From: Hypomesus transpacificus
Taxonomy: Eukaryota > Chordata > Actinopteri > Osmeriformes > Osmeridae
NCBI RefSeq assembly: GCF_021917145.1
Contig: NC_061063.1
Span: 9,442,650 to 9,506,649, forward strand
Length of the DNA: 64,000 nt
Direction of reading: 5' to 3'
Below the pieces are notes generated by a model, which was not told the DNA's origin, did no database searches, and was given only the letters and a program-made list of their open reading frames with translations. Positions 12,641 to 63,686 of the stretch are shown here, piece after piece; the stretch's first letter is position 1; each line of letters begins with the position of its first letter. The position numbers and the translations under genes are program-made.

Positions 12641-16836
<4,196 letters not shown>

Positions 16837-18201: not shown

Positions 18202-20917
18202 ATGTCTTTGGTAGCCTACGGGAGCAGTGATGACAGCGATTCAGAGGAAACTTCAACATCTGGTAGCAAGTCTGCAGGTCTTTTCGCCCTTCTCCCCTCT
18301 CCCAAAAAGTCTATATCTGGACCACCAAACAGAGATGCATCAACACACTCCTCTGCGATAAGGAGCACTTTGTCCAACGACGATGCTGCCGAGAACACAC
18401 CGGCCCGGTCTCAAACACTGAAAGGAGGGCTGCTTTTTGACTTGCCTAAACCGAAGAAGCGAACAGAGCCTGTGAAAATCACCATACCACAACTTAATAA
18501 AGATGTAAGTTGACCAGTTATTTTGAAGTTTATCTCCATGAATGAAAAGTAGTTTCAAAATGAGACGACTCAATATCGTGACGATGTTATTGTTTACAGT
18601 CAGATTCAGATGAAGACGAACCAGCCAGGAAGAGAGCGGTGCCCCAGGTAAGAAATGTCTTGTTTACATTTTACAATCTTCTCAATGTCTAAACTTAGTC
18701 AACCTTAGACTGAACTGTCTAATTTATTAATCCACATCCCCCCATTGCACCTCTTTCTGCCTTCCTGGTTAAGGGGTTAGGCCTCTCCTCTCTCTTACCG
18801 CAACCTAGAAACATGACCATAAAGGAGACCGGCAGGTCCCTGGTGCCACACACCCTCACCAAGCGCCCCGACCCTAAGGCCTCCAAGCCCACCAAGCCCT
18901 CCGTCACCCAGGGCCTCTCCAACTCCAGCGCCTCCCCTTCTGCCATTAAGGCCGCAGCCAAGTCTGCCGCCCTGCAGCTAGCCAAGCAGATGGCCGCGGA
19001 CGACCAGGAAAGCGACGAGGAACTCTCCCCAGAGAACTACTTCTCCCTGGGGGACAACTCACTGCCTCTCCCCGCCGTGGATCCCAGCTTGGATCCAGAA
19101 CCCGGAGCCCCTTCGGCTCTACTACCTAATCCGGCGGCGGCGGAGACCGGATCCTTCCAGTCCGACGCTCCCCTGGAGTTTGGGCCGGGCGGCGAGGAGG
19201 CATCTGGGAGCGTGTGGGTGGGTCAGCAGCATGCACCGCTACATCCTCAGTACCTGGAGCCCTCTGTTGAACCTGCGCCGGAGCCCCTCCCACAGGTAAC
19301 GGGAGATCAGGAGGTTACTGATGTCTGGGTTTACAGTTCTTCTGTGCAGAAACATGCTCCAGTGCAGTGGTTCTCAATCCTGATTCTAATAAATGAGTCA
19401 TTATCAAGCTCAACAGAAGCCTGATAACAACCCATTCATTTGAATCAGGTGTTTTGAAGCAGGGAAACGTCTAAAACATGCAGGGCAGGGGGGCCCGAGG
19501 ACCAGGATTGAGAACCACTGCTCTAGTGGTTATAATGCAACAATAGAGCAGCATCTACTCATAATATCTTGTTACCGGGCAGGGTTACTACAATGAGGCA
19601 TACTACCAGAGCCCTGATCCGTCATTGGCTGAGGCAGACGAGCCTGGCTCCTCCGGCCTCTTCGATGATGAAGCGGTAAGCCTCGGTCGTTCACTCTCCC
19701 AACGCAGCACTACACATGCTGCTTCATGTACACACCGCCGTTGTCATTTTCACACTGCCCCAACAAACACCAACAGGTATATCATACCAATTCAACACAA
19801 CAATTGTATGGCTGTTGGTGTTTGTTTGGCCAGTGTTGAACTGGCCCTTAGCTGGTTAGCACCAGAGGCTGATGTGTTGCTGTTGTCCCTAGTTCCGGAG
19901 GCTGCAGGGGAAGAGGAACAGGGGCAAGGAGGAGGTGAAGTTCCTGGAGATCAAAGGAGACGACCAGCTGAGTGGCAACCAGCAGTGGATGGCGAAGAGC
20001 ATCACTGAGGAGAAGCAGGAGCGCAAGTCTTTCAGCAAGGTGAGGGGGGGCGGGGGACAGGCTCTGGGGGAGAGACACAGGCTTTGGGGTAAAGAGACAG
20101 GTTCAGGGGGAAAGAGACAGGCTCGGGGGGAGAGAGACAGGCTTTGGGGGAAAGAGACAGGTTCAGGGGGAAAGAGACAGGCTCGGGGGGAGAGAGACAG
20201 GCTCGGGGGGAGAGAGACAGGTTCAGGGGGAAAGAGACAGGCTCTGGGGGAGAGAGACAGGTTCAGGGGGAAAGAGACAGGCTCGGGGGGAGAGATTAAA
20301 GAGATGAGCATGACCGCTAGGAAGGGTGGGTGTTGTCACCTTCTTACACACCTACTAACCCTGATTCATCCTCATCCTGGTCATGCTGTGGAGGTCGAGG
20401 TGCCTGAATTACTGCAGAAACAAGGATAGCTTTATCACACTGCATTTCTTAAACCAAATCCCTGCCTGTGTCTGCTAAGTGTAGTACAGTAGTACCTGAT
20501 ATCTGACCTTTTACCTACCTGCACTTGTGTTGACAGAAAAAAGGAGACCAGCCCACAGGACAGCAACGCCGCAAGCACCAGATCACATATCTGATCCATC
20601 AGGTGGGTGACACACTTCCATCTACAATTCAAACCGTTAATAAAACACTCCACAGTCACACCCTGACCCGTGTTTAGGGTTTACGTAACGTTTCATTTTG
20701 TAGCAACCATCCCATTTTGCATGTCAAACCGAAACGAACGATGCTTTGACGGTGCTGAAGAACACGTTGTAGTCCCAGATGTGATGCTTCCCTGAAGCTA
20801 ATTTCAGACTATCATGTCCTGCTTCCGCAGGCTAAGGAACGGGAGCTGGAACTGAAGAACAACTGGGCAGAAAACAAGCTGACCCGTCGGCAAACACAGG
20901 CTAAATACGGCTTCTAA
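18202..20917 (+). CDS. prcc: Proline-rich protein PRCC (mitotic/splicing-associated nuclear protein)
   Basis: Seven exons in phase: 18202-18504, 18600-18647, 18774-19295, 19583-19675, 19893-20039, 20537-20602 and 20831-20917, for 421 aa. The N-terminus MSLVAYGSSDDSDSEE and the LPKPKKR segment match PRCC, as do SAIKAAAKSAALQ in the middle and the highly conserved C-terminus (EIKGDDQLSGNQQW, GQQRRKHQITYLIHQ, TRRQTQAKYGF). It is somewhat shorter than the human protein because the proline-rich N-terminal part is reduced. PRCC is a nuclear protein linked to spliceosome components and to MAD2L2, and is a partner in renal carcinoma translocations. Intron 5 carries a minisatellite immediately after the donor. 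Confidence 0.96.
19365..19520. mobile_element. hAT-type MITE with 8-bp target duplication
   Basis: Perfect 18-bp terminal inverted repeats (CAGTGGTTCTCAATCCTG and its complement) bound a 156-bp non-coding element. It is flanked by CTCCAGTG (19357-19364) and CTCTAGTG (19521-19528), an 8-bp target-site duplication with one mismatch, as expected for the hAT superfamily. It sits in prcc intron 3. Confidence 0.85.
20056..20296 (+). repeat. 20-bp minisatellite in prcc intron 5
   Basis: About 11-12 units of the type AGAGACAGGCTCGGGGGG / AGAGACAGGTTCAGGGGG, starting about 17 nt after the exon 5 donor at 20040. Units are G-rich. Confidence 0.9.
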
Positions 20918-22273: not shown

Positions 22274-22572
22274 AATGTAATTTCTGCTCTAATCATTAAA
22301 AGCTCTTTTGTAATTACTTTTTTACATTGTTACATTACAATTACAGTGTTACACAGACTAAATCTGTAGAAACGGGTTTATTTCTTGGTTTGACAGTTCC
22401 ACTGGATTTGAAATGAAAATAAATACAAACCTATATTGTAATAAGAATAGATTCACATATGCTGTTTATTATGATGTACAGCAAACCCATTTCTGTGTGG
22501 AGAAACACAGCTCTGTTGACATTAAAGTGTTGCTAGTTTCAGCAGTCTTTGATGGACAGGCAGTAGACAAGA

Positions 22573-25494
22573 CTACTTGTCTGGTTTGTCTTTGACTTCC
22601 TTGTTTGCGTCGGGACCTGCTGCTGTTTCTGACGTGGTGGCTGAAGGCTTGGGAGCAGCAGGAGCTGCCTCCATTGATGCTGCTGCTGCTGCTGCTGCCT
22701 CCGGAGCTGCTGCTGCCTCCGGAGCTGCTGCTGCTGCCTCCGGAGCTGCTGCTGCTGCCTCCGGAGCTGCTGCTGCCTCCGGAGCTGCTGCTGCTGCCTC
22801 CGGAGCTGCTGCTGCTGCCTCCGGAGCTGCTGCTGCTGCCTTCGGAGCTGCTGCTGCTGCCTCTGGAGCTGCTGCTGCCTCCGGAGCTGCTGCTGCCTCC
22901 GGAGCTGCTGCTGCCTCCGGAGCTGCTGCTGCCTCCGGAGCTGCTGCCTCCATTGATGCTGCTGCCTCCATTGATGCTGCTGCCTCCGGAGCTGCTGCTG
23001 CCTCCGGAGCTGCTGCTGCCTCTGGAGTAGTAGGAGCTGTCTCTGGAGCAGTAGGAGCTGCCTCTACTGATGCTACTGCCTCTACTGCTGCCTCTGGAGC
23101 TGATGCTGCTGCCTCTAGAGATGGTGCTGCTTCCTCTAGAGATGGTGCTGCTGCCTCTAGAGATGGTGCTGCTGCCTCTGGAGATGGTGCTGCTGCCTCT
23201 GGAGCTGATGCTGCTGCCTCTAGAGATGGTGCTGCTGCCTCTAGATATGGTACTGCTGCCTCTGGAGATGGTGCTGCTGCCTCTAGAGATGGTGCTGCTG
23301 CCTCTAGAGATGGTGCTGCTGCCTCTGGAGCAGTAGGAGCTGCCTCTACTGATGCTACTGTCTCTCCGGCTGCCTCTGGTGCCGATGCTGATGCCTCTGG
23401 AACTGAACCTGCAAAGGCTTCTGAAACCGCCTTTGCAGCCGCCTCTGGAGCAGCTGCAACACCTGCCTCTGAAACCGCTGCCACACCTGCCTTTGGAGCA
23501 GCTGCAACACCTGCCTCCGAAGCAACCACCACACCTGCCTCTGGTTCCTCTTCCTGCTGTTTCTGTTGCTTTAACAGAAGTTTAAGCCCTCTGGGGCTGC
23601 CTTGAAAGGGCACCACAGACATGGGAATTTGCACAGTGTTTATCCCGTTGACCTGTCAAAACAAGAACATTCCAATGAGTTTCACGGCAAACGAACAACT
23701 GCTGGAGAGGCCCCTCTCTAGGCACAGGTATTGTCCATTCTCTCCGACAAAACACCTCTTTGGGTTGTTCGGTTCTGCGTCAAAATATCGTCTATGGAAT
23801 AATTGCATTAAGAAAATAATTGTGGAATGCCACGGGCAACACAGAGCCGAAAAACAATTTGGTCGGGAAGTTGGGTCCGGGGTTTCTCGGTTGGGGAAAA
23901 ACTATATCCGAACAAGAGCTGTTCGGACCAATCAAATTGTCAGGGCGGGCTTTATACAATGATGGACAGATGATCAACAGTAACGTAATCCAACCACATC
24001 ACCAAGGAGCACTTCGGTTGAATTTGTTTTCAACAAACAACATACTACGTTGTTCTGATTGGCTGTAGGTCTATTCAATTGAGCGAAAAGGGAATTTTTT
24101 TCCGGGTTCGGTTGAAACGCCCCATACTCACAGCCCAACGGAGCGGTATCAGACTCATATTCTGACTAGAATTATGAGTATGACAGCGTCAGGCTAAGAA
24201 AGTATTAGTTTAATGATCTGATCTTACCGTGACCTCGCACCAGTAATCTCCCAGGTCTTTGATGGGCTCGTCTGGAAGTCTCAGAGCATGAGGAGGGACG
24301 ACTATACCTTGCTGGAGGGAGAAAGCTGTTAAAGATGAACACTTATCATCGCTAATCTTTGATCCAGTGAGTTACACATTTTTAAACCAGTCCTACCTTA
24401 AGAAATTGCCTGCGGACGATCTCTGAGGTGATCACATAATCAAGAGACATTTGCTTTGTGATTTTCAACTCCATGTTCTTCAGGAATTCCACGGTCTGCA
24501 GACATAGGAGGCAATGTTTCTTAAGGTAGACATGCTAGCCTGCTGTGACTGAAATCTGTAGCAACATTGAAGGTACAGACATAAATATCTTTACTAACCA
24601 TTTGCCCAGTGCGTGTTTGAATTCTATCCTCCACTTTCCCCTCCCGTAAAAGCTGTAATAGAAAATTATTTGATGAATGCTTCTTTAAACAAAAGGCAAT
24701 TTGCAACTGTTAAGCATTTGAGTTGTACACTCACTCTCAATTCCTCAGAAAACATCTCTTTGTTTTCTGGTGATGGGTACACTGCCAAGCCTTCTGCCAA
24801 AAGCTTGTTGCGCCCTAAAGATTTCTTGACGATCACCGTGTCTCCTCGACCACCGAGCTCTAAATAGCGAACGAAGAATTAAGGGAGTGCATTATGACAA
24901 ATCATCTTTGAAATAAAAAGAGATTCTTCATGAGAAACACAGGTGTAAGCAAACTAACATACTTGCAACAGTCTGTGTAAGAATGAGCTCCATCTTCTCT
25001 TTAGGCGCATGTTTGGTGTCCTCCACTACTTTGTAAACACGATGTCGCCGCGGGTGTAGCCTGGGCGGACGACCCTCTTTGGACAGCGGCACCTGCCACC
25101 AACGTTCAACCACAACTGTATTCTGCGAGGGCGAGACGAGAGATGCAGCGTTAGCTAGCACTAGAATAGCACCGTATCGTTAACTGGTTATGGCTAACTA
25201 ACTAAAAGCTATTAACCCCGTTTGAGTTTAGTTGGAATATACATTGATAACCTTTAGATTTACCATACCGTCTACTCAATCTCAATTAAGGGTGGTCCAT
25301 ATTGCTCTCTTGTGTCACCTGGCTGTCACTCATTTTCCTACCGGGTTTTAAATCAGACGTTTTAACTGACAAATGTTGCCATCCGATTTACTTTTAAAGC
25401 TTACCTTGCATGCCGTTTGTGAAAAACATTGAACATGGGAATGTGATAAATCCCGCACCAAACCCTGAAGGGCACGTCGGCTGGTACTCCACAT
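22573..25494 (-). CDS. mrpl9: Mitochondrial ribosomal protein bL9m with long Ala/Pro/Glu tail
   Basis: Seven exons in phase: 25405-25494, 24963-25122, 24735-24859, 24599-24652, 24397-24495, 24228-24311 and 22573-23652, for about 563 aa. The first 236 residues match MRPL9: [24 protein letters not shown], the L9 core [25 protein letters not shown], and [12 protein letters not shown]...YWCEVT followed by IPMSVVPF. Exon 1 ([18 protein letters not shown]) looks like a mitochondrial targeting peptide. The last exon then runs on for about 325 residues of APEAAA-type repeats, ending KEVKDKPDK. Human MRPL9 is 267 aa, so the tail more than doubles the protein. It is in the same exon and frame as conserved residues, so it would be translated unless an unseen intron removes it. 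Confidence 0.93.
22666..23520 (-). repeat. mrpl9: Low-complexity Ala/Pro/Glu-coding repeat in mrpl9 last exon
   Basis: Units of 12, 15, 18 or 24 bp built on GCTGCTGCCTCCGGA (plus strand) and related GATGGTGCTGCTGCC units. All indels are multiples of three. Because of the periodicity the plus-strand frames are open too, but these are shadows. Confidence 0.9.
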
Positions 25495-26330: not shown

Positions 26331-27624
26331 TCAGTTGAAGTCAATGATAATTTGAAGAAGGAGGGCACCAGGGAAGTCTGTGGTGATGATTCCAAAACGT
26401 AAATTCTGCCCCATGCGTGCAGTCAGGTAGTCGTAGATACGGGCGTTGATACGCTGGGCGACGGCATTGGGGTAAGCGAAGACCCCGGCTCCGCTGCCGT
26501 AGGTGAGGAAGATCTCGGCCTTGTTTCCCACGATAGCCATGTCCAGGTGTTCCTCAACGCTCTGCCACTTCTCGTTCACGTGCAGGAGGGTGGGCACCTG
26601 AGGGAAAACAAGGAGTGAGAATCAAATTCACAATTCAACTTACGTGGTCACCAACTGTTAAATAGTTTCTTGAATTGCCATTGGGACTATCTTGAAATAG
26701 ATGAATTGAACTGAATTGAACTGAATCATATTGAACTCAGTTGAACTGAATTGAACTGTCTTTACCTTCCAGTCGTCCGCGATGTTCAGGGACCCGTAGC
26801 GCATTCCCAGGTCTGGTCCGGCAAAGTCCTGCAGGACGATGAGCTTCCCCCGGGCCTCACCCACCGTGGGCACGAGCCGGCTGTGCCACAGCAGGTCCCA
26901 GTGGGCGTAGCGGTGGATGTAGCTCACAACCGGGCCGTAGATATCGTAGGTCTCGCTGAACTCCTCCTTCAGCCGCATGAGCACCGTCTCGCTGGGGTAC
27001 TCGGACAGGAACTGGGCCACGTCCTCCAGCACGTGGCCGAAGTGCGCCCGCTGGTAGGAGACGCCGTGGTGGAGGGTCAGGTTCCCCCGGACGTTGCGGA
27101 CGCGGATGTCCAGGAAGCGGACGCCGGCCCGGAGCTGGGAGGCCAGGCTCCAGGACTCGCACTCCGCCAGGGCCCCGCCATACAGCGCCATGGTGTTGTG
27201 GGTCCCAGGGAGGGTGACCTCAGATAGCGAGCGGCTATCTGGGATGCCCCCCATCCAGGAAGGGTTGAGGAACTCTGGGTTGGCCGTGTCGTCGTAGTCG
27301 GGCCTCTGAATGGTGCTGCCAGTGGTGCTAATGACTCTGCGATTGGGTGGAATGACAATGAGTTATAGGCAGAAAAAAAGTGTGCCTGGATTGCCCCGGA
27401 TGGGTGAGCATACCAAGTGGGATGAGGCCTATGTATTTATATATCAAATAAAACAGTGTGGTTAATGTTTCACAACATAAATCCCTCAAACTGGTCCCTT
27501 CCTCCAGTTTTTCTGTTGCCTGACCTGATTGATTGGACTCCCTTTAAATAACTTACCCAGCTAAGACGATGAGTTCCACGAACATCTTCCCAATTTGCAG
27601 GGAGGTTCGTTTGGGACTTGTCAT
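26331..27624 (-). CDS. Bacterial-type PI-PLC X-domain protein (1-phosphatidylinositol phosphodiesterase-like)
   Basis: Three exons in phase: 27557-27624, 26766-27336 and 26331-26597, for 301 aa. The N-terminus has a short hydrophobic run (MFVELIVLAGVIS), a possible weak signal or anchor. The X-domain follows: LPGTHNTMAL (His69), AGVRFLDIRV, LTLHHGVSYQ (His112/His113), and the C-terminal GIITTDFPG. The two histidines correspond to the general acid/base pair of PI-specific phospholipase C enzymes, which cleave phosphatidylinositol to inositol cyclic phosphate and diacylglycerol without needing calcium in the bacterial type. The residue after His69 is Asn, where many homologues have Asp, so activity may be altered. 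There is no Y, C2 or EF-hand domain, unlike classical metazoan PLCs. The size fits the one-domain fish proteins of this kind. Confidence 0.9.
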
Positions 27625-34522: not shown

Positions 34523-40350
<5,828 letters not shown>

Positions 40351-41352
40351 ATCCATATGAGACATGTATCTTTTCACAACTTGTACTTTTCTTTGTTGTT
40401 TGTTTTGCTGTTTTGTATCAAACCATTGCCTTGAAGGAGTGTTTTCACAAGAGAATTTAAATAGTTTCTCTCATCACATCATGTATTCGATATTCACATG
40501 ATTGTGTTTATTTTACAAATGAGTATTGCTTAGGCCTACTGTTATTTTTTCAGGGTTGTAAATATTTTTATTTAACGGTTCATTTTATTAAAACAATTTA
40601 TATAATGTGACTGAATTATTACTTGCTGAATCATGTTGTGTACAGATGGAAACGTGGAAAGATAAATTAATCCACATGAGAGCGCTGTTGCCACACAAAA
40701 TGAATTCAGAAACTCGCATGAAGCGATGGTAGAATTAAGACATTACTCAAATCCTAAATGTGCGGATGTAGCCAAAGCGATAAAAATAATCCTGCAATTA
40801 ATTTAATAACTAGCCTATGAAAAGCATGTCTATGATTAAAAGCGTTCAGATAAACAGCAAGTTTTCAATAATGTTTACATGTGTAACCATGGTTACGAAA
40901 CCGCGGTTGAGCCTAGTGGTGATGGGCGAAAGTCCAGAACCGGATATCACAATTTAGTTTTATTTCAAAATGGTTTAGATACTAACATCAAACAGTATAC
41001 TCTTTGTAACTTATCGGAGGTCACGTTTGGGGTGGTGCATATCAGGTACAGATCTTCATCTTTCACTACATTGTTAGTTTTCATGGGATTTTGGCCTTCG
41101 CCAAAATAGCTATAAAACACTAAACATCCGTTTCCTTTTGAGCTAAATTGACAAATGCAATGTGACAATCTTGTACTTGAAGTTACAATGTTGCTTTATG
41201 TTTGCGACTGACGTGTAACAAGCGGCATCTAGTGTAAGCAGCAACAGCTACAGTTGACTACTTTGGTTACAGGTTAGAAAATTAAATACCTCTAGACATC
41301 TTCTTAATGCATGCAGCTTAATTAGCCTACTGTATTTTTGTCTTTTTTTACA
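40351..41352. other. krit1 3' UTR and lrrd1 upstream region
   Basis: AT-rich, with a candidate ATTAAA polyadenylation signal for krit1 at 40587-40592. lrrd1's first coding exon begins after TTTTTACAG at 41353, so a 5' non-coding exon probably lies here. No coding exon is seen. Confidence 0.5.
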
Positions 41353-41362
41353 GGGCATTGCA

Positions 41363-44362
41363 ATGAAAATGTTTGAAGAATTCTTTTTTCAAAACCAAAA
41401 TTCGTCTTTCTCTTTAGACGGTCAGAGTCTGAAGGAAATTCCAGTGGATTTAATTCTGGAAAATGTGAAAGTGAAATGTTTGTCTCTATCAAACAATGAA
41501 CTGAAATCACTGCCAGAGGAGATTGAGGGCATGAGCAATGTGGAAGTTCTATCTGTTCAAGGAAACAAACTGACTTCATTACCTTCAGTTATTCAAAAAC
41601 TGCAGCTTCTCAAAGCCCTCGACATCAGTAACAATCAAATAGCTAAGCTTCCGAATGAAATATGTGAATTGAAGAATATCACACGTATTAATGCAAGCAA
41701 CAACAAACTGGAATGTCTTCCATCCACTTTTGGAGATTTGACAACTTTACAAGTCCTCAACCTGGACGGAAATCGCATTAATGCTTTACCTGAATCTTTT
41801 AGGTCCTTGAAGAACATCACTGTTTTGAATTTGGACAAAAACAAGCTCTCACATTTCCCCCATGTTGTATGCCAACTTCCCAAAATCCTCATCCTCAATC
41901 TCTCAAAAAACAAGATTTTGACTTTACCCAAGCACATATCTAAACTTACAAAACTAAAACAATTATCTATGAATGCCAACAGCCTGACCTGTTTGCCTCT
42001 ACAACTGTTTCGTATGACGAACTTGGAAGAGCTGAACTTGTGTATGAACCAGCTGACATCCCTTCCAGATGAGGTCGAGAAAATGAAGGGACTGAAGGTA
42101 TTACAACTGAGTTACAACAAGATAAGCTCGCTCACAGACAAGATAAGCGGATGTTCAAAACTCAGGCATCTCTGTGTTTCAGGGAACCTATTAAGACGAC
42201 TGCCTGAGAGCATTGGGGTTTTGACGCAGCTGCAAGACTTAATTGCTAACTGGAACCGTCTGGAAACACTTCCTCGACAAATGAGCTTGTTGAGAAACCT
42301 TTCCATCTTTGAATGCTCCAAGAATTACCTGGGTCACATCCCCCTGGAAATACGCAAATGCTCAATGTTGACCTCGGTGGATCTAGGTGGTAACCAGCTT
42401 CGCAACTTTCCAATGGGACTGTGCTCAGGACTTCCTCTGAAATTTCTTGACATCAGCCAAAACTTGTTGTCCAAGCTACCAGCTAACATCGGCGAAATCC
42501 ACACATTGCAGCACTTTAATCTGAGAGAAAACCGTTTCACAGGCGCTTTACCCAAACCTCTCTACGAACTACACAGCCTTATCCATTTGGACCTGAGTGG
42601 TAATGCCATACAGACCGTTCCAGAAGGCATTTCTGGCCTACAAAACCTTCAAGTGCTCTTTCTCCGGGGGAACAGGCTTGACGAGTTCCCTCTGGAGCTG
42701 CATCATCTGAAGAGTGTTCGGGTTCTTGACCTGTCAGACAATTTGCTAGGACGAATATCGACAGAGCTGAAAGGACTGAGAGAACTCAGGGACCTCAACC
42801 TCTCAAACAATCAGTTCTTCCTCTTTCCTGCCAAAGTGTGCGATCTGAAGTCCCTTGAAAAGTTGAAAATGTGCCACAAAAGAGGAGTAAAGGTAGGATG
42901 AGTTGACATTACACTCGGTCATTTAGCAGACACTCTTATCCAGAGCGACTTACAGGAAGTTGTACAGTAAGATTGATTTAGCTACGTTCCTAATCAACCA
43001 AAACGTAACAAACAGACAATTAAAAAATTGTATTCATTACAATTAAAATAGTCTGTTTTTTACTCCCACTAGCTGACTACACTGCCTAAGACCCTAACGA
43101 AGCTGAGATGTTTGAGGGAGTTTGATTTCTCAGACAACATCATCCAAGAGATCCCTGACAACATTGGAGAACTGAAGAACCTCACCAAGCTGATTGGAAA
43201 TAACAACCACATATCCTGCCTGCCCAAATGTATAACAGCTCTGCAGAACCTACAGCATCTAGAGCTGAAAGGTAAGAAGGAATCATGTAATACTTTTAGG
43301 TAAATACCCCCAACTTTCCAAAAATCCCAATTTGGTTTTGGTGCTGTTATGATTTTTCCTTAATGTGGCTAAGTAGAGGTTGGAACATGAGGACGCATAT
43401 GATTCAAGTGAAAGTCATTCTGATTATACTTAATAACGTTAATAATCTCCATCCTCACTCTGTTCTCCATGACAACATGAATACTAGTCCTGTGTCCTCA
43501 GGGAACCGTCTGCAGTACCTACCTCCCTATCTGGGCCAGCTGCCGTCTCTGAAACATGTAGAACTGGAGGGGAACCCACTCACCAGACCACCCAAATCCA
43601 TCTGTGACCAACACCAGATGGATACCATAGGCCAGTACATGAACAGCGAGATCGCCTGGAATGGTAAAGAATGGATCAGGACAGAAACAGTCATGGCAGC
43701 CTACTGTTCTGCAGTTCACAAAAACGTTGTTCTATTTCGTTATTGTTGAATAATGGAATTACGTTCAAATCATGTTTCAAGTTACTGGGTTTTTAATCAT
43801 ATACTATAACACTCTAATTGAACGAAAAGTGGCGCTGAGGATATTTTTCTGTATATCTTCCACCCCGCCAACCTCAAAATTGGATCGTTGTTACAGAGAA
43901 AATCCTACAGAAGGCTTTCAGGTTTGTTGCAAGCAACCTGCAAAGGAGAGACTTCAACCACTTCTGTGTGAAACTAAGAATACTACCTCAGGATTTCAAT
44001 GCTCAAGAAGATAAACAGTAAGATTTTGAATTATATTTTGAAATCCGTCACAGCAGCAACATTTCAATTCTTTTGATCAGAGTTTCAGTTAAAGGCAGTG
44101 TCTGAATGTGTATTTTTTTTACTGCATGGTACTTTTTATGGATAGTTTAGTTGACTACGGTGTGTGTTCTTGTGTCTGCAGAGTGCCACAGAAAGAGAAA
44201 ACAATGCAGGCCTTGACTAAATGGAGAGATCTCTACAACAGTGAGAAGGAGACGTCCTTTGTAGGAGACCAGCTTGTGAGGACCTTAGTTCTGGCGGGCC
44301 TGTATACTCTGTCTTCACAAGTCCAGGCCATAAAGATATATGCCAAGGCCATTAGACTGTGA
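41363..44362 (+). CDS. lrrd1: Leucine-rich repeat and death domain-containing protein 1
   Basis: Five coding exons in phase: 41363-42892, 43073-43271, 43502-43663, 43897-44017 and 44182-44362, for about 730 aa (human LRRD1 is near 860, so the N-terminus is shorter). The first exon is a long run of about 20 leucine-rich repeats of 23 residues, of the LxxLxLSNNxLxxLPxxI type (for example VKCLSLSNNELKSLPEEI). The last exons encode helices consistent with a death-type domain (EKILQKAFRFVASNLQRRDF, then GDQLVRTLVLAGLYTLSSQV). The cellular function is not established; LRR plus death domain suggests a protein-interaction scaffold. Its position between krit1 and cyp51 is the same as in human and supports the name. 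The start follows an acceptor by 10 nt, so an upstream in-frame exon cannot be excluded. Confidence 0.92.
42909..42965 (-). repeat. SINE/LINE 3'-tail fragment
   Basis: Reverse complement of the common tail (CATTTAGCAGACACTCTTATCC), in lrrd1 intron 1. Confidence 0.75.
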
Positions 44363-45270: not shown

Positions 45271-48200
45271 ATGTCAATGCATTTATATCTAGTTAGCAGT
45301 GCGTTGATTGAAACCACCGTCGGGAAAATAAGTGAAAACCTGACGTCAGTGGTCCTCGCAGCCTCAGTGATCACTCTTGCACTGGGATACATCTCTAAAG
45401 TGCTCATCAAACAGTCATGCGACAAAGACTTGGTAAGTCAAAGTAGCCTGTGTGACAGTTTATCGTTGTCTCATGTAAGTAGCCTGATTAGCAAAGGTTC
45501 GGTGTTCTTACAGAATTTTTGTTTTGTGTGAGTAGAAACACCCACCATACATTCCTTCAAGCATTCCATTTCTGGGACATGCTGTTGCATTTGGAAAAAG
45601 TCCTATTGATTTCTTGGAAAACGCATATGAAAAGGTGAGGCAGCAACTACTTATCTTAAAATTCCAAGCATCACCCAGCCCTCCTATTTCTGGTGATTAA
45701 TGTAGCCTAAATGTTTACAATATGCTTAAGAGTACTCTTAAACTTCAACATCTTATTTCTCCATCCACAGTATGGACCTGTCTTCAGTTTCACCATGGTG
45801 GGCAAAACCTTCACCTATCTCCTGGGCAGTGACGCAGCAACGCTCATGTTCAACAGCAAGAACGAAGACCTCAACGCAGAGGACGTGTACTCTAGACTGA
45901 CCACGCCAGTGTTTGGCAAAGGGGTGGCCTACGATGTAGCCAATCCTGTAAGACACATAGCGAGCTCTTGCTCCAGTTACATCATTTTAATAACATCGAT
46001 TTTGCTCTAGAAGTGTTCAAGTGCTTATTTTTGCTTCTTTGACCGTTTTGCCCAGATCTTTCTGGAGCAGAAGAAGATGCTGAAAACAGGTCTGAACATT
46101 GCCCATTTCAAGCAGCATGTCCAGATCATTGAAGACGAGACCAAGGAATACTTTGAACGATGGGGAGACAGTGGGGAGGAAAGTATGTTGAAAAGTAAAC
46201 ACATCCACAGTGTGTCAAAATGTAGTCCTCTGGAAAACCTCTATCTAAAATCATTGATACATGCAATACTTCTGACAGGATATTCTGCATGGATGCTCGT
46301 ATTGATTACCCTGTCAGCAAGTTTTACACAAACTACTCATCCTCATCATTCTGTCCCTATACAGAACCCCTTCCCCTCACTCTCCTTCCTATTGACCACT
46401 TGACTTATCTTTCACCTACAGTTCCTGGTTTCTCCTATACCCCACCGCACTCTCCTCCCTCTCTCCTACAGACCCCTGCACTCTCCTCCCTCTCTCCTAC
46501 AGACCCACCTCACTCTCCTCCCTCTCTCCTACAGACCCCTGCACTCTCCTCCCTCTCTCCTACAGACCCACCTCACTCTCCTCTCCTCCCACCTCAGATC
46601 TGTTCGAGGCCTTGTCGGAGCTGATCATCCTGACGGCCAGCAGCTGCCTCCATGGTAAGGAGATCCGCAGCATGATGGATGAGAAGGTGGCCCAGCTGTA
46701 CGCTGACCTGGACGGAGGCTTCAGCCATGCTGCCTGGCTGCTGCCTGGTTGGCTACCCCTGCCCAGCTTCATGTAAGAGCCAGGAGGACAGAAAAAAACT
46801 AATTGTCAAAATTCGAATTATTTTTGTTTAAATAACCCCTTTCCCCTTCATTTATTCTGTTTCCCCATGAACGTTTATTTAATATTACATAGGTCAAATT
46901 TTGTAAATGACTGGTTAGAGCAATTGACTGCAGATCAAAAAGGTTGCAGATAGAAATCCCCCTCTGTAAATTGCTGTGGATATCCGTCTACTTACTGAAA
47001 TGAACACCTTACATTATGAAATCTTTGGTGCTTACTGAGGTTGTTACTGCTCTTGTTGGACAGACGGAGGGACAGAGCACACAAGGAGATCAAGAACATC
47101 TTCTTCAAGGTCATCCAGAAACGAAGGAACTCTGGAGAGAAGGTGGACGACATTCTCCAGACTCTTATAGACGCCACCTACAAGTAAGACTCTGACCAGT
47201 CCTCAGCACAACCCTGCCGTCTGGTCTGTAGGCCCTGTCCATTTCAGCTGTAATGTACTTTAACTGAAGCAGTGTAACAGTAAACATTGCCCCAGACTCA
47301 GCAGAAAAGCTCCTGTGGTCGAGATAAAAATCAGAACAGATCATCACAAATCTACTTCCTGCAGGGACGGCAAGCCCCTGAACGACAGCGAGATTGCGGG
47401 GATGCTGATTGGTCTTCTGTTGGCGGGGCAACACACGTCGTCCACCACCAGTGCCTGGCTGGGCTTCTTCCTGGCTCGGGACCGAGACCTGCAGGAGCGC
47501 TGCCACGCCGAGCAGAGGAACGTCTGTGGAGATAACCTGCCCCCTCTGGACCTGGACCAGGTCTGCCTGCTGATCTCCCCCTCTCTCTCTGTGTCTCTCT
47601 CTGTGTCTCTCTGTGTGTCTCTCTGTGTCTCTCTGTGTGTCTCTCTGTGTCTCTCTCTGTGTCTCTCTGTGTCTCTCTCTGTGTCTCTCTGTGTGTCTCT
47701 CTGTGTCTCTCTCTCTGTGTCTCTCTCTGTGTCTCTCTCTCTGTGTCTCTCTCTGTGTCTCTCTCTCTGTGTCTCTCTCTCTGTGTCTCTCTGTGTGTCT
47801 CTCTCTGTGTCTCTCTCTCTGTGTCTCTCTGTGTGTCTCTCTGTGTGTCTCTCTCTGTGTCTCTCTGTGTCTCTCTCTCTGTGTCTCTCTCTGTGTCTCT
47901 CTCTCTGTGTCTCTCTGTGTGTCTCTCTCTGTGTCTCTCTCTCTGTGTCTCTCTCTGTGTCTCTCTGTGTGTCTCTCTGTGTGTCTCTCTCTCTGTGTCT
48001 CTCTGTGTGTCTCTCTCTCTCTGTGTCTCTCTGTGTGTCTCTCTCTCTGTGTCTCTCTGTGTGTCTCTCTCTCTGTGTCTCTCTGTGTGTCTCTCTCTCT
48101 GTGTCTCTCTGTGTGTCTCTCTCTCTGTGTCTCTCTGTGTGTCTCTCTCTCTGTGTCTCTCTGTGTGTCTCTCTCTCTGTGTCTCTCTGTGTGTCTCTCT

Positions 48201-48349
48201 CTCTGTGTCTCTCTGTGTGTCTCTCTCTCTGTTTCTCTCTCTCTGTTTCTCTCTGTGTCTCTCTCTGTGTGTCTCTCTCTTTCTCTTTGTCTCCCTCTCT
48301 CTCTCTGTCTGTCTGTCTGTCTCTCTGTGTCTCTCTCTTTCTCTTTGTT

Positions 48350-48444
<95 letters not shown>

Positions 48445-48467
48445 GTGTCTCTCTCTTTCTCTTTGTT

Positions 48468-48524
<57 letters not shown>

Positions 48525-49697
48525 GTCTGTCTGTCTGTCTGTCTGTACCTTCACATGGAATCCACTCTGTCATGTGATCTAATAGATCAAAATCTTACAC
48601 AATAGCTCTCCTGGTCAGCATTTCAAAATCAGTTTCACACTTTAAACATCAATGTTAAACCGCTGACCTTTTTAAACACCAGTCCACTGTATAGATTCAG
48701 GAAGTGTATAAATCAGAAGTAGCACAGTTTCACCTACCTGCTACCTGGTCTCTCTTACCTGGTCTCTCATCCCCAGCTGAAAGATCTGACCTTGCTGGAC
48801 CGCTGTTTGAAAGAGACCCTCAGACTCCGCCCCCCCATCATGACCATGATGAGAATGGCACGCTCTCCACAGGTGAGTCCCACATCCCAGAGCCCACCGC
48901 CGCTACATCGCACGGTCTCCATGACAACCTGCAACATGGCCTCCCAGAGCCTAATATTTAACAGCCATATAGTTATATATATATAAAAAGAAAAAGCTGT
49001 CCCACCCATATTTGAAAACAAACGTACGCCCCTGCATCATCTATGCACCGTTTGTAAAGTTCGCTTTGGATAAAAGCGTCTGAGAAATGAATCAAACGTA
49101 ATGAAATGTGTCGTCTGCGTCCAGACCGCGGCGGGCTACACCATCCCCGTGGGCCACCAGGTGTGTGTGTCCCCGACCGTCAACCACCGCCTGAAGGACA
49201 CCTGGACGGACAGGACCGAGTTCGAGCCTGACCGCTACCTCCAGGAGAACCCCGCGGCAGGGGAGAAGTTTGCTTACGTGCCGTTTGGAGCAGGTAAGGA
49301 AACCGCCGGAGAAAACTACTGTGGTGCCCTGTCACTGTATGACCAGGGAGGAAGGAAACATGAATTTCAATAACATAAATATTAAAATAAAGTATCCATA
49401 TCATGTGAAGTGGTTTCCACTGAGACAAACATATTTGTCAGATGTTTATAGGATATTTGAATGCCTTAAAAAGAGAGAGAAAAGACAAAACTTAAAAACC
49501 CTTTCCCTTCTCCCCCAGGCCGGCATCGCTGCATAGGAGAAAACTTTGCCTACGTTCAGATCAAGACCATCTGGTCCACCATGCTGCGCCTCTACGAGTT
49601 CGATCTGGTCGACGGCTACTTCCCCACGATCAACTACACCACCATGATTCACACCCCTCACAACCCCGTCATCAGATACAGAAGGAGGACGAACTGA
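45271..49697 (+). CDS. cyp51: Lanosterol 14-alpha-demethylase (CYP51)
   Basis: Ten exons in phase: 45271-45432, 45536-45634, 45771-45947, 46056-46182, 46598-46772, 47064-47183, 47365-47560, 48777-48872, 49125-49293 and 49519-49697, for 499 aa (human about 503-509). An N-terminal membrane anchor ([16 protein letters not shown]) holds it in the ER. P450 signatures are the I-helix [15 protein letters not shown], the K-helix ETLR (ExxR), and the heme-binding loop [11 protein letters not shown] with the axial cysteine. The enzyme removes the 14-alpha methyl group of lanosterol in cholesterol synthesis, using O2 and NADPH-P450 reductase. CYP51-specific residues such as [19 protein letters not shown] near the substrate pocket confirm the family. 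Intron 4 and intron 7 are expanded by tandem repeats next to splice sites. It converges on akap9. Confidence 0.97.
46455..46597 (+). repeat. 31/32-bp tandem repeat up to cyp51 exon 5 acceptor
   Basis: Pyrimidine-rich units ending CTCTCTCCTACAG, with CAG ending at 46471, 46502, 46534 and 46565. The true acceptor CAG at 46597 follows at the same spacing. Confidence 0.9.
47577..48546 (+). repeat. (CT/GTGTCTCT)n microsatellite in cyp51 intron 7
   Basis: Roughly 970 bp of TCTCTCTGTGTCTC-type repeats, grading into pure CT and CTGT runs, starting 17 nt after the exon 7 donor. Long open frames on both strands are artefacts of the period. Confidence 0.95.
49058..49105 (+). repeat. SINE/LINE 3'-tail fragment
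   Basis: CGCTTTGGATAAAAGCGTCT in cyp51 intron 8, ending 20 nt before exon 9. Confidence 0.75.
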
Positions 49698-50847: not shown

Positions 50848-53800
50848 CTACCTTCTCATTCCAAAGTGCAATTGAGCATATGAAGATGATCCTGGAGGAA
50901 AAAATGAAATAAAAATCCAACAAAATTCTAAAGGAAATCTACAGTCTTAAGTGGTGTGTTGTGTGAATGTATAAGAATGAATACACTCTCTCTCTAGTGT
51001 GTGTGTGTGTGTGTGTCTCTCGTGTGTGTGTGCGTCTCTCTCTAGTGTGTGTCTCTCGTGTGTATGCGTCTCTCTAGTGTGTGTGTGTGTGTGTGTGTGT
51101 CTCGTGTGTGTGTGTGTGTGTTACCTGACGTCACGCCCCCCAGCCTCCTCTGTAAGGCCTCCAGTCTGGAGATGTAGTCTGTGAGCGCTCTGTCCGGGTC
51201 GTAGCTCTGCAGGTGGGAGCAGCTCAGAGGGCCGGAGTCTCCCGCCAGGTGGAACCTGACAAACACACCCTGCTTTTAAAAAACCCTCCATCATCCTCTG
51301 GGTACACCAACGGTGGTTGCGGTGGTTGTCATGGTAACGGCTGTTGTTGTTGATGTTGCCGTGGTTATGGTACCTGTGTTGTGTGGAGGACAAGGCTGAT
51401 CTGGGGGAGTCTCTGCCAGAGCGCCCTCTGCTGGTCGCTCCCTGTCTGTCGGCGAACACCTCCACACTGCCAGGGTGCAGGAAGGGGGAGTCCCTCACAT
51501 CGCTCCCTGGGGGGGTGGGGGGGGGAGGGGGGGGGGGGGGGAGGAGGGGGGCAGACGGGAGGAGGGGGGGGCAGACGGGAGGAGGGGGGAGGATAGACGT
51601 CTTTAACTACATGTCTTTATCAAATCAAACTTCATTGGTATAGCCCTTCCTACAAGCAGTGTCATAGAAGACTTCACAGATGGACCCATAACCATTCCTG
51701 TACCTGGTGTTATGCTGTGAGGTCCTGTTCCTGGTGTTATGCTGTGAGGTCCTGTACCTGGTGTTATGCTGTGAGGTCCTGTGACTGGTGTTATGCTGTG
51801 AGGTCCTGTACCTGGTGTTATGCTGTGAGGTCCTGTACCTGGTGTTATGCTGTGAGGTCCTGTACCTGGTGTTATGCTGTGAGGTCCTGTGACTGGTGTT
51901 ATGCTGTGAGGTCCTGTGACTGGTGTTATGCTGTGAGGTCTGTACCTGGTGTTATGCTGTGAGGTCCTGTACCTGGTGTTATGCTGTGAGGTCCTGTACC
52001 TGGTGTTATGCTGTGAGGTCTGTACCTGGTGTTATGCTGTGAGGTCCTGTACCTGGTGTTATGCTGTGAGGTCCTGTACCTGGTGTTATGCTGTGAGGTC
52101 CTGTACCTGGTGTTATGCTGTGAGGTCCTGTACCTGGTGTTATGCTGTGAGGTCCTGTACCTGGTGTTATGCTGTGAGGTCCTGTACCTGGTGTTATGCT
52201 GTGAGGTCCTGTGACTGGTGTTATGCTGTGAGGTCTGTACCTGGTGTTATGCTGTGAGGTCCTGTGACTGGTGTTATGCTGTGAGGTCCTGTGACTGGTG
52301 TTATGCTGTGAGGTCCTGTACCTGATGTTATGCTGTGAGGTCCTGTACCTGGTGTTATGCTGTGAGGTCCTGTACCTGGTGTTATGCTGTGAGGTCCTGT
52401 ACCTGGTGTTATGCTGTGAGGTCCTGTACCTGGTGTTATGCTGTGAGGTCCTGTACCTGGTGTTATGCTGTGAGGTCCTGTACCTGGTGTTATGCTGTGA
52501 GGTCCTGTACCTGGTGTTATGCTGTGAGGTCCTGTACCTGGTGTTATGCTGTGAGGTCCTGTACCTGATGTTATGCTGTGAGGTCCTGTACCTGATGTTA
52601 TGCTGTGAGGTCCTGTACCTGGTGTTATGCTGTGAGGTCCTGTACCTGGTGTTATGCTGTGAGGTCCTGTACCTGGTGTTATGCTGTGAGGTCCTGTACC
52701 TGATGTTATGCTGTGAGGTCTGTACCTGGTGTTATGCTGTGAGGTCTGTACCTGGTGTTATGCTGTGAGGTCTGTACCTGGTGTTATGCTGTGAGGTCTG
52801 TACCTGGTGTTATGCTGTGAGGTCTGTACCTGGTGTTATGCTGTGAGGTCTGTACCTGGTGTTATGCTGTGAGGTCTGTACCTGGTGTTATGCTGTGAGG
52901 TCTGTACCTGGTGTTATGCTGTGAGGTCTGTACCTGGTGTTATGCTGTGAGGTCTGTACCTGGTGTTATGCTGTGAGGTCTGTACCTGGTGTTATGCTGT
53001 GAGGTCCTGTACCTGGTGTTATGCTGTGAGGTCCTGTACCTGGTGTTATGCTGTGAGGTCTGTACCTGGTGTTATGCTGTGAGGTCTGTACCTGGTGTTA
53101 TGCTGTGAGGTCCTGTACCTGGTGTTATGCTGTGAGGTCCTGTACCTGGTGTTATGCTGTGAGGTCCTGTACCTGGTGTTATGCTGTGAGGTCCTGTACC
53201 TGGTGTTATGCTGTGAGGTCCTGTACCTGGTGTTATGCTGTGAGGTCCTGTTCCTGGTGTTATGCTGTGAGGTCCTGTACCTGGTGTTATGCTGTGAGGT
53301 CCTGTACCTGGTGTTATGCTGTGAGGTCCTGTACCTGGTGTTATGCTGTGAGGTCCTGTACCTGGTGTTATGCTGTGAGGTCTGTACCTGGTGTTATGCT
53401 GTGAGGTCTGTACCTGGTGTTATGCTGTGAGGTCTGTACCTGGTGTTATGCTGTGAGGTCTGTACCTGGTGTTATGCTGTGAGGTCCTGTGACTGGTGTC
53501 TGGGCGAGGCCGTTTCTGTTGACTGTGCCTGGAGACACAGAGCTCATCCCTGTGGCCTTCTGCCAACGCTTGACCAGGAAACGCATCCTGAAACAGCAGG
53601 AAAGTTGAGCTAAAAATGCTTCTAGCTAAAAAGAAACTCCGGAATAAATCATGTCAGTGGATTAAAAAAAACAACTTTCTATCAACAGTATGGAAGGATG
53701 TCACAAACAACGATGGATTCTGGTTAAATATCAATCACCACCGCGCCCTAAAGGCAGGGCCCTTCACTCCCGACACCCCGAGACTACATTTCCCAGAGTT

Positions 53801-56800
53801 CACCTGGAGAGGGCGATGGAGACCCTGACGGCGGAGCGGAAGCGCGTCAGCCCCCTGTGGCGCTGCGACTCCAGGCTGCAGACGGACGGCCGGCCGCCCA
53901 TCCTGGAGATCAGCGACAGCGTGGCCTCTTCGCACTCCTGGAAGCCGCCCAGCAACAACAACAGGTACTTCTTCTGGTAGATGAGGGCCTTCCGGAAGCT
54001 CTCGGAACGCAGGTACTTCCCGTACATTCTCTGGGTGGAGAGGGAGAGCGGAGGGTGGGGGGTTGAAGGATTTGAGTGAATCACGTGATATGTCATGATT
54101 ATTGAACCTTGAACACAGGAGTTCAACCTTTCAGAATGCCTAATTTTTCGTAATTAATCATCAAAAGCATTTCTGTACTGCATGATATTAAAACTAAATC
54201 CTTATTGACGTGTTTGTCGTGTCTCAGTCTCTGTCATTCCCAGAAACCCTCAGTGTGCAGGAGCAACCAGCAGTGCCTGAGAGCTCACCTTCAGCGTGGT
54301 GTTGTCTGCGTCCGGCCCGCTCATGTCTCTGAGAGCCTCTGTCCTGAGCTCCGCCCGGAGGCGGGAGAGCTCAGCCTGGGCCGTGCGGAGCCCCTTCTCC
54401 AGCCGGCTCCTCTCCCGGCCCCACGCCTCCCGCTCCTGGGAGAACAGGGCGCCCGCCGCGTCCACGCCCGCCACGCCCCTCCTGCTGCCGGGCTGGAAGA
54501 CGGAGAGAGGGTTCAGAACGCTGGGACTCCATTGAACTCATTCTAGAACTATTAGTGTGCTCATCCTGAATGGGATTCCATTCACATCATTCTAGAACTA
54601 AAGCATGTTAACTCAGTTTGCTTTACTAACTCAGCGCCCCCTTGTCTCTATGAAGAACCGTTGCTGTCAGAAGTCAAGACACCCAAAACGACATCTGGGT
54701 ATTCCGACCGTCCGGTAACACTGCACGGTGTATCAGTCCCGGTCCCTCTCTATAAACCTGAACAGCATCCCTCCCGTTAACGGGGCAACTGCGGTGAACT
54801 CACGCTGAGTCCGCTGCCCAGGCCGGAGTGCCGGTACCGCCTCAGCTCCTCCTCCAGCCGCAGCGTCTGGTTCCGCAGATCGTTCTTCTCCTCCGTCAGA
54901 CGGCTGACGAAGCCCGTGAGCTCGGCGTTCTGCCTCAGCAGGCGCTCCGTCAGGGAGCCTCCAGCCAGCAGGGCGGCACTCTGGAGGCAGACACAGAGAT
55001 GGGAGTCAGGTGGCTGAGCGGTTAGGGAATCGGGCTGGTAATCTGAAGGTTGCCAGTTTGATTCCCGGCCGTGCCAAATGACGTTGTGTCCTTGGGCAAG
55101 GCGCTTCCCCCCACTTGCCTCGGGGGGGGGGGAATGTCCCTGTACTTACTGTAAGTCACTCTGGATAAGAGCGTCTGCTAAATGACTAAATGTAAATGTA
55201 GAGATCACACCGACTCTGAGGCTTAAGAGCCCGCACCACTAAAGGCTAAGACTCTCAATAGAAGATGTTGACTCCAGCTGGAAAGGACTGTCCTGTGATA
55301 GGCTTGATTTCTCTCACCTCTGGGGCAGAGGGGAGTCCTGGGAACCGCTGCAGCATGCTGATGACCTCATCAACGTTGGACTGGAGCCAGGTTAGCTCCT
55401 CTCTGTCCACCTCTGTGGTCAGCCTGTTAGAAACATTATTCACATTTTATGTAGTAACCTTTACTTTTTACACAAAAAACTACAACACCACAGTTGAATT
55501 AACTGAATTGAACCTGTCCATGGTATGCATAAATGATTTAAAAAGTATTTATTTTTTGTGTGAATACACAGCTTAAATCCTTGATTCGGTAAGCCAATCG
55601 GGAGCCACACCTGTCAGGTGCCTTGCTGGCCAGAGCCCTGATCCTGCTGGCGATGAGCTGCAGTTTCCCCAGGACCTTGTCCGTGGAGGGTCTGGGGTCG
55701 AGGGGCGCGGTGGTGACCCCCGACCCTGTGGGCTCTCGGAGGGAGGGCGTGCCGGACATGGCGGTCTGAGCGTCAGTGCTCTTCTGCTGGAACACCCAGT
55801 CCATGGTCCTGTCTGTGGGCTCGCCTGTGCACACGCCTGGCTGCTATGGAGCAGGAGGGGTCAATGGTGAAGCACTTGTACAGTACGGACAGCCAGATTG
55901 GTTGGTTGACACTGTGATTATCTAAGGCCGGTGTAAACGAAACAAGCCTATGGTAGATAATGCTAATACGTTAAAGGTTATCGTAGGGCGCCGTGTACCA
56001 ACAGCAACGCAGCAAAACAGGGTTGCTAGGGGTGCAAATAAGCCTGACAATAACTCGAAAAGGGGGCAACAATACAGTTGCCTAGAGACCTACGTGATCT
56101 GTTGTATGGACCTATGGAAACCATTCAACTAAACATAAACAAGTCAAGTGAATTAAACAAGGGTTCAGACTCATGTCTGTAAACTGTCCAGTACTGTAAC
56201 AAACGGGCGACGAGGAGGAGTGCTGACTCACGTTCTGACTGTCAGCTCCCCGCGTGCCTCTCCCTGCCGTCTCCCCCGCCTTCCTCAGCTGGACCACTCT
56301 CTCCTCCAGCCTCTCCTTCTCCTGTTCCAGAGCCTTGCTCCTCTGCACCTCCTTCCTCAGCTGGGCCTGCGCCTCCTGCAAGGCCTCCTGCAGAGCCTGG
56401 AGCTGGGCGCGGCCAGCCTGCAGGGTCTCCTGGTCCTGCTGTGACCTCTGACCTGTGGAGGTGAGCACTTCCTGCTGACGGACAGCCACCAGCTTGTGGG
56501 ACTCCACCTCCCCGAGCAGATGCACCACCTGAGGGGAAGAGGGGATCATTTAATTTTTAATAATAATTTAGCATTTCTTTCTTTTTACAGAATCTTTTAC
56601 TTCAAAAAACAATATGCATGTAATTTATACTTTTTTATTTGTATAATTTATCTTTTTTTTCTTATATATATATATATCACCCTCTTTGTCAACTCAAGTG
56701 TTTACCTGTGCATGTTTCTCATCCAGCTCCCTCTGCAGACTGTCCAGAACAGCTTCAGCCCCCTCCTCCCCCTCCTGGGGGTGACCTCCGCCCCGGCGCA

Positions 56801-62800: not shown

Positions 62801-63686
62801 CATTTCGTCAAACTCGTCCCTGCTGGGTCCTCCCGTCTGGCTCCCTGGACGCGGCGGCTCCTCCTCCTCCTCGTCTTCCTCCTCCTCCGCCGCCTGTTTC
62901 TGCTCGATGTTAGCGAGCTCCTCCTGGAGTTTTTCGATGACAGCGTTGAGCTGGTACAGCTCTTCCTCGCTGTTCCTCTTCAGACGATCCCGTTCGCTCC
63001 GCATGAACTCCACCCGAGACTCCAGCTCCCGAATCAGCTCGTCCTTCTCGTCGATGTCCTGGAGAGAAGGGCTAAGGTGAGTAAGGAATACAGGATGCAT
63101 GTCCTGGAGAGAAGGGCTAAGGTGAGTAAGGAATACAGGATGCATGTCCTGGAGAGAAGGGCTAAGGTGAGTAAGGAATACAGGATGCCGAGCTGATCGC
63201 TTTCAGACTTGCCGTGCTTTTCTTTAAAACCTACGAGACACGGCTGTGGTTCCAGTCCGGATTGTCTAGCGATGCCTGAAACGATCAGTTCATCGTTTAG
63301 CGATGCCTTAACGATGAGCTCATCGACGCTTTCTTAGGTGCATTCACGGAGGTCAAATGCAGTGTCAGTTTCATGACAAAAGCTCAAAACAATCACTGCT
63401 CTTGAGTGTCTCAAAAGTTTATCCAGACATACGACAACAACTCACGACAGGTCTACTTACCGAAACCAAAGACACCAAAAAATGGTGGTTTTACGAAACA
63501 CAAAATGAGTTTCACGCAAACAAACACACAGCACTGCCACAGACATATACAAATACGCAAACAGATCCAGGTCTGTTCCGTATGTGCATATTGTGTTACC
63601 TTGTTATCAGATGCTGTTTCCGTGTGTTGAAGCTTAGCGATCTGTTCATTAAGAACAGCTATTTCCCTGTCCCTCTCCTCCAAAAC
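50848..63686 (-). CDS. akap9: A-kinase anchor protein 9 (AKAP9/AKAP450), C-terminal part
   Basis: Twenty-five exons in phase, 1763 codons before the stop, 5' end beyond the window. In ascending order: 50848-50891, 51125-51255, 51374-51506, 53466-53587, 53804-54030, 54289-54492, 54804-54980, 55318-55423, 55611-55840, 56232-56528, 56706-57014, 57142-57292, 57521-57767, 57924-58080, 58296-58463, 58741-58926, 59123-59244, 59756-59816, 60145-60864, 60957-61001, 61190-61330, 61431-61475, 61577-61711, 62012-63058 and 63600-63686. Nearly all of it is coiled coil. The exon at 53804-54030 holds the PACT centrosome-targeting domain (SFRKALIYQKKYLLLLLGGF, FRSAVRVSIALSR). The end matches AKAP9 (SYDPDRALTDYISRLEALQ, then LHFGMRR). 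AKAP9 scaffolds PKA, phosphatases and gamma-tubulin complexes at centrosome and Golgi. The donor of exon 53466 lies in a minisatellite and is the least certain junction. Confidence 0.95.
50996..51121. repeat. (GT)n-rich microsatellite
   Basis: GTGTGT runs interspersed with CTCTAGTGTG and CTCGTGTG, adjoining the donor of the penultimate akap9 exon at 51124. Confidence 0.9.
51507..51596. repeat. G-rich low-complexity tract
   Basis: Poly-G and GGAGGGGGG stretches directly upstream (on the minus strand) of the akap9 exon starting at 51506; read as C-rich pyrimidine tract in the transcript. Confidence 0.85.
51698..53497 (-). repeat. akap9: 26/27-bp minisatellite, about 67 units, overlapping an akap9 exon end
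   Basis: Plus-strand unit CTGTACCTGGTGTTATGCTG followed by TGAGGTC, with 27-bp and 26-bp forms and a few point variants (GACTGG, CTGATG, TTCCTGG). On the akap9 strand most units contain ACACCAG/GTACAG; the GACTGG variants do not. The akap9 exon at 53466-53587 ends inside the first units of the array. Confidence 0.95.
55001..55200 (+). repeat. tRNA-derived SINE in akap9 intron
   Basis: GGGAGTCAGGTGGCTGAGCG head and GCGTCTGCTAAATGACTAAA tail, antisense to akap9, 20 nt upstream of the acceptor of exon 54804-54980. Confidence 0.9.
58527..58549. repeat. Poly-C homopolymer
   Basis: Uninterrupted C run in an akap9 intron, about 60 bp from the exon starting at 58463. Confidence 0.85.
59247..59421. 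repeat. GGAGGA/poly-G purine tract next to an akap9 acceptor
   Basis: Repeated AGGAGGAGG, AGGAGGGGAAGC and G runs. On the akap9 strand it is a 175-nt pyrimidine tract ending directly at the CAG before exon 59123-59244. Confidence 0.9.
61878..62015. repeat. 35-bp tandem repeat, about 4 units
   Basis: Units of CAGCTGCACATGCTAACGCT plus AACACATAACCCCTG. The last unit runs into the donor of the large akap9 exon 62012-63058. Confidence 0.9.
63059..63187 (-). repeat. akap9: 45-bp tandem triplication of an akap9 3' splice site
   Basis: Nearly three copies of a 45-bp unit. Each carries the pyrimidine tract and CAG (63059-63061, 63104-63106, 63149-63151 on plus). The first is the acceptor of exon 62012-63058. 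Confidence 0.95.

Follow-up and report, generated by a model that had tools for sequence, protein, structure and literature searches.

An in-frame minisatellite in the last exon of mrpl9 predicts a 326-residue Ala/Glu/Pro tail on the mitochondrial ribosomal protein bL9m of Hypomesus transpacificus

In the genome of Hypomesus transpacificus the gene encoding the mitochondrial ribosomal protein bL9m (mrpl9) runs, in its last exon, from conserved codons straight into an array of short repeats. This raises the question of whether a protein of the mitoribosome is produced with a long repetitive tail and, if so, how such a tail came about and what it would mean for the ribosome. The window, by which we mean the whole stretch of DNA that was analysed, comprises 64,000 nucleotides of contig NC_061063.1 (positions 9,442,650 to 9,506,649), and all positions below are counted from its first letter unless otherwise stated.

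The mrpl9 gene occupies positions 22573-25494 on the minus strand and consists of seven exons separated by six introns, all of them GT-AG. Exon 1 (25405..25494) carries the start codon and an Arg/Ser-rich N terminus, which is presequence-like as judged by eye, and ends at the donor AAG/GTAAGC (score 10.9; this and all other splice scores were calculated from approximate base frequencies at splice sites and not with a trained model). The domains recognised by Pfam are distributed over the following exons: bL9m_N (residues 33-65) and the beginning of Ribosomal_L9_N are in exon 2 (24963..25122), the bulk of Ribosomal_L9_N (residues 74-120) is in exon 3 (24735..24859), and bL9m_C (residues 134-218) begins in exon 4 (24599..24652) and continues through exon 5 (24397..24495) and exon 6 (24228..24311). 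Exon 7 (22573..23652; 359 residues) starts at the acceptor TTTTGACAG at 23652 (score 9.7), its first 33 codons (23554..23652) encoding the end of bL9m_C and a short linker, and is closed by the stop codon TAG at 22573..22575. The open reading frame itself reaches back to 23655 and so includes three bases of the intron. A polyadenylation signal AATAAA is placed about 100 bases past the stop (22465..22470), and a second one is found at 22377-22382, both on the minus strand as are all the exons.

The predicted protein has 563 residues, of which 237 form an ordinary core and the remaining 326 the tail. Within residues 33-218 of the core the three domains follow each other in the order known for bL9m, with scores of 72.2 (bL9m_N), 49.2 (Ribosomal_L9_N) and 125.7 bits (bL9m_C), all above the cut-off, and bL9m_C stops at residue 218 of the 237 core residues; the general bacterial model Ribosomal_L9_C stayed below the Pfam cut-off on this protein. 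Among solved structures in the PDB, 26 distinct sequences matched at E 0.001 or better. The four best were full-length bL9m chains of 265-268 residues (top 9e9c_H, E 4.5e-73), and the best three chain sequences (E 4.5e-73 to 1.4e-72) were collinear over about 204-209 core residues. Because of these domains and matches, the gene is, as read from its sequence, mrpl9, in agreement with the first-pass annotation. Chain H of 3j7y and chain I of 4ce4, which we take to be mammalian MRPL9, share the collinear core of about 204-209 residues with the protein described here. However, with 265-268 residues the mammalian chains have no room for such a tail, and the length of 563 residues lies well outside that range, so that the earlier statement that the protein is more than doubled stands.

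A search of the 437-Mb genome with the 237-residue core returned six matches, all six being the exons of mrpl9 itself, and a search of the same genome for the L9_N family led to a single place, again mrpl9. No second L9 copy was therefore found in this genome, nor was a tail-less retrocopy or paralogue of mrpl9. Moreover, exon 7 has no stop between the conserved codons and the tail, and the frame is open to 22573-22575, as had been described before. With no intervening stop and no further L9 gene detected, any mRNA in which exon 7 is complete has to give rise to the tail. Judging from the sequence, translation would be the default outcome provided that exon 7 stays unspliced.

Counted from EEEPEAG, the tail (22576..23553, minus strand) has 326 codons; the length first proposed, 325 residues, was thus right to one residue, and the limit of 23560 then given is close to the start measured at 23553. 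Alanine makes up 155 of the 326 residues, followed by glutamate (48), proline (44), serine (23) and threonine (9), with a proline about every 5-7 residues; there are eight lysines and no arginine. The net charge is -43 for the tail and +14 for the core. Repeat periods of 18, 21, 24 and 48 bases, all multiples of three and all inside exon 7, agree with what defines a coding minisatellite, and the Tandem Repeats Finder scores of 420 (18-base period), 408 (21-base) and 152 (48-base) are far above chance. Three sub-arrays can be distinguished on the minus strand. The one closest to the core (23446..23541) consists of four 24-base units of the EAGVAAAP type and has decayed furthest, with a mean pairwise identity of 0.80, and the middle one (23083..23313) of 11 units of 21 bases of the PSLEAAA type (mean pairwise identity 0.91). 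The distal one (22678..23022) is made chiefly of 18- and 21-base units and shows an identity of about 0.98 among 14 units of these two lengths, units bearing SM and units of 15 bases being excluded from that figure. The C terminus (22576..22671) shows little repetition. This gradient of identity, rising from 0.80 through 0.91 to about 0.98 between the core and the end, suggests that the array grew stepwise and that its distal part is the youngest. In addition, one phrase of 12 residues is present twice within the tail, which points to an additional, larger internal duplication.

No family was matched when exon 7 was scanned by itself with Pfam. The tail had two matches in the PDB, 5vj4 (E 1.5e-7) and 8qae (E 0.003), which were taken as compositional. 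In its own genome the tail has at least 29 further matches; of the six that were examined (L002-L007), five are other repeat arrays, and the sixth, L003, contains a long open frame, the portion of which that was examined is not APE-rich. One of the five arrays, L006 (contig C14, near 17518100-17519000), is a 21-base minisatellite with 40 units reading AASCEVR (280 codons); three of its six frames run without a stop for 375, 370 and 350 codons, which makes it helpful in judging open frames over repeats of this type.

Tandem arrays are also present elsewhere in the window. At 13476-13616 an 18-base array (7.8 copies) encodes AQKTGG repeats within an open minus-strand frame (13168-13788) and is possibly a second in-frame coding minisatellite of the window; a Pfam scan of this frame region gave no match. 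The top-scoring tandem repeat of the window is a 27-base array at 51696-53499 (about 67 copies, 97% matches), each strand of which has frames that are open in places, and a 43-base array, whose period is not divisible by three, is placed at 39077-39380 (7 copies, 98% matches). Convergent with mrpl9 on the plus strand are exons at 18723-20916 which we take to be PRCC-like; this region includes a 20/60-base array (20056-20295), and one piece of it had no match in Pfam. Among the other neighbours, Pfam recognised a PI-PLC X-domain exon at 26658-27362 (minus) and a leucine-rich-repeat frame at 41258-42901 (plus). The exons at about 46000-49500 are presumably CYP51A1-like and those at 56000-63200 presumably AKAP9-like coiled-coil exons, and none of the pieces of these two regions scanned with Pfam gave a match above the cut-off.

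From the fact that the frame is kept over the whole repeat the first-pass annotation had suggested that the tail is translated and tolerated. The argument is a weak one and supports neither translation nor selection. All units of the tail (15 to 24 bases) are multiples of three and changes in their number preserve any frame; three of the six frames across the tail are without stop; and the units show no clear preponderance of silent changes. In two unit types read in the true frame, only 0.8-2.1% of single substitutions, weighted four to one for transitions by assumption, would create a stop. When random substitutions were added in simulations, the tail kept its open frame in 284 of 500 trials after 40 substitutions and in 125 of 500 after 98. 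With three frames open, stops so rare and the L006 array likewise open, the open frame was rejected as more than weak evidence of coding. The changes among units can be summarised as follows, with the reservation that they are few and that the copies are not independent of each other. In the 21-base sub-array, the 11 units show 12 codon changes of six kinds, none of which is silent (expected silent share about 0.35), the first four 24-base units show five silent changes out of 11 (0.32 expected), a slight silent excess, and the 14 distal units differ by a single silent and a single amino-acid-changing substitution. Residue-level constraint is thus not clearly evident among the units of the tail.

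What is known of L9 from other ribosomes bears on whether such a tail could be carried. According to two papers (PMC3335287; also PMC4592705), bacterial L9 spans from beneath the L1 stalk to the adjacent ribosome in crystals. The first of these also reports that Escherichia coli survives both truncation and deletion of L9 and that truncated L9 is not incorporated in Thermus ribosomes, the latter indicating that the C-terminal half may matter. The bL9m of trypanosomes is described as having the N-terminal domain only (PMC12885271). In Mycoplasma, according to PMC9534751, L9 is mainly flat in 70S ribosomes overall (68.9%) and extended in 20.2%, and in tightly packed polysomes its C-terminal domain enters the factor-binding site of the next ribosome. 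The PDB also lists two different chain sequences of bL9m (6nu2 type, two entries; 9hcg, one entry) with no more than 95 residues, corresponding to the N-terminal half, which suggests that the remainder was not built in those structures. By analogy the last domain of bL9m is probably mobile, and a tail attached to it would likely be tolerated. The tail itself was drawn with helices in the repeats when exon 7 alone was modelled with AlphaFold from the single sequence (mean pLDDT 50.9). The longest of them comprises model residues 263-328 (66 residues) in the distal array, with a block pLDDT of 60-71. As the helices are drawn at low to middling confidence, the model gives no more than a hint of helical stretches.

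Extensions of ribosomal proteins have been described before. PMC9534751 reports that terminal extensions are common throughout bacteria and not specific to a sub-group and that those of Mycoplasma are mostly predicted to be disordered; disrupting the latter reportedly has consequences for fitness or survival. They resemble the tail of the fish protein in being terminal and lying beyond the conserved protein, but they are bacterial, and were defined by a length above 20 residues (one with 17 being retained) in 11 proteins. Being common and fitness-affecting, they indicate that this type of feature is already known and that it need not be neutral. The first-pass annotation knew of no described equivalent, and this may hold in the narrow sense of a repeat tail on bL9m, for which no report appeared among the literature matches listed, judged by title and the opening of the abstract; in the wide sense it cannot be maintained in view of the bacterial extensions. 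The zinc-finger array of Prdm9 (PMC3890296) is likewise made of tandem units in coding sequence with rapid turnover; however, each of its units folds as a zinc finger and is reported to evolve under positive selection, whereas those of the fish tail are of low complexity with no clear constraint. Type I antifreeze proteins (PMC3855684) are, like the tail, alanine-rich with helical stretches and found in fish. In contrast to them the tail has a proline every 5-7 residues or so, is poor in threonine (9 in 326), is acidic and is fused to a mitochondrial ribosomal protein. An antifreeze-like identity was dropped on composition, and there is no reason to assume that the tail binds ice.

Splicing within exon 7 could remove the tail, or its core-proximal part, and leave a protein of near-ordinary length or with a shorter tail, which we regard as unlikely. 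Two candidate donors (23535 and 23487, both 8.6) and three in-phase candidate acceptors (23324, 23042 and 23021, scores 7.1-7.4) are present within the exon, and past the stop there are acceptors at 22492 (7.4) and 22430 (6.9). The real sites of mrpl9 score 6.4-10.9 (donors) and 7.0-9.7 (acceptors), so that all of these candidates are like real sites except 22430, which is just under the range, and the pairs within exon 7 would excise a multiple of three bases. Nevertheless, when 1000 random stretches of equal length were taken from the window, 312 of them contained a donor-acceptor pair as good as these. Moreover, the acceptors inside the exon would leave about 149 or more codons of the tail, and near-total removal needs an acceptor past the stop. 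The tail might also be translated and then cleaved during or after import, with the ribosome keeping an ordinary bL9m. Long low-complexity stretches are plausible targets of proteases, but we think such cleavage improbable.

It can also be supposed that the tail is a functional extension which, carried by the mobile C-terminal domain of bL9m near the L1 stalk, keeps neighbouring mitoribosomes apart like a spacer or bumper, or tethers them to another mitochondrial structure. This would be an analogy to Mycoplasma, where L9 reaches into the next ribosome and disrupted extensions affect fitness (PMC9534751), and the length of the tail, its acidic nature (net -43) and the 66-residue helix predicted in the distal array are consistent with it. 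However, the units show no clear residue-level constraint, the AlphaFold model is a single-sequence one of low confidence and the genome has many other minisatellites, for which reasons a function of this kind appears improbable as well. The more specific proposal that the tail is retained on the mitoribosome as a spacer of variable length, setting the distance between mitoribosomes in the polysomes of this fish lineage, is suggested by the capacity of the L9 C-terminal domain to reach the neighbouring ribosome in a polysome, and we give it very little credence. Lastly, the in-frame tail could be real and the length of the array an artefact of assembly, the true array being shorter or longer, as the distal units are about 98% identical and arrays of this type are collapsed or miscounted by short reads. 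The window contains 0 N, though, the core-proximal part is diverged and the locus is deep within its contig (C4, at 9.46 Mb), all of which make an artefact very improbable.

The explanation that we consider probable is that of a coding minisatellite which has grown stepwise in the last exon of mrpl9, with a tail that is translated, tolerated and neutral or nearly so. It is supported by the GT-AG introns, the Pfam domains, the single copy, the open frame, the AATAAA downstream and the gradient of identity. The minisatellite would have arisen in the last exon of the sole mrpl9 found, directly downstream of the sequence encoding the conserved C-terminal domain, and would have lengthened as units of 15 to 24 bases were gained through slippage or unequal exchange, the distal part last. 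The protein would then be produced and imported with an acidic, alanine-rich and largely disordered tail that has some helical stretches and is attached to the last bL9m domain. As the bacterial counterpart of this domain is mobile and can reach off the ribosome, a tail there should be tolerated and is probably selectively neutral or nearly so. Against this explanation stand the splice-like pairs in exon 7, the small surplus of silent changes among the 24-base units, the fitness effect of the Mycoplasma extensions together with the mainly flat L9 of that organism, and the failure of truncated L9 to be incorporated in Thermus.

Should mature mitoribosomes carry the tail, it would show how much unstructured mass near the L1 stalk the vertebrate mitoribosome tolerates, and it would offer a natural test of the role played by L9's mobile C-terminal domain. 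A neutral tail, on the other hand, would be a clear case of a housekeeping protein doubled by a minisatellite at no obvious cost, and also a caution against taking open frames in repeats with triplet units for selection. The tail of this fish bL9m most likely represents the expansion of a repeat that is tolerated, and not a new machine.
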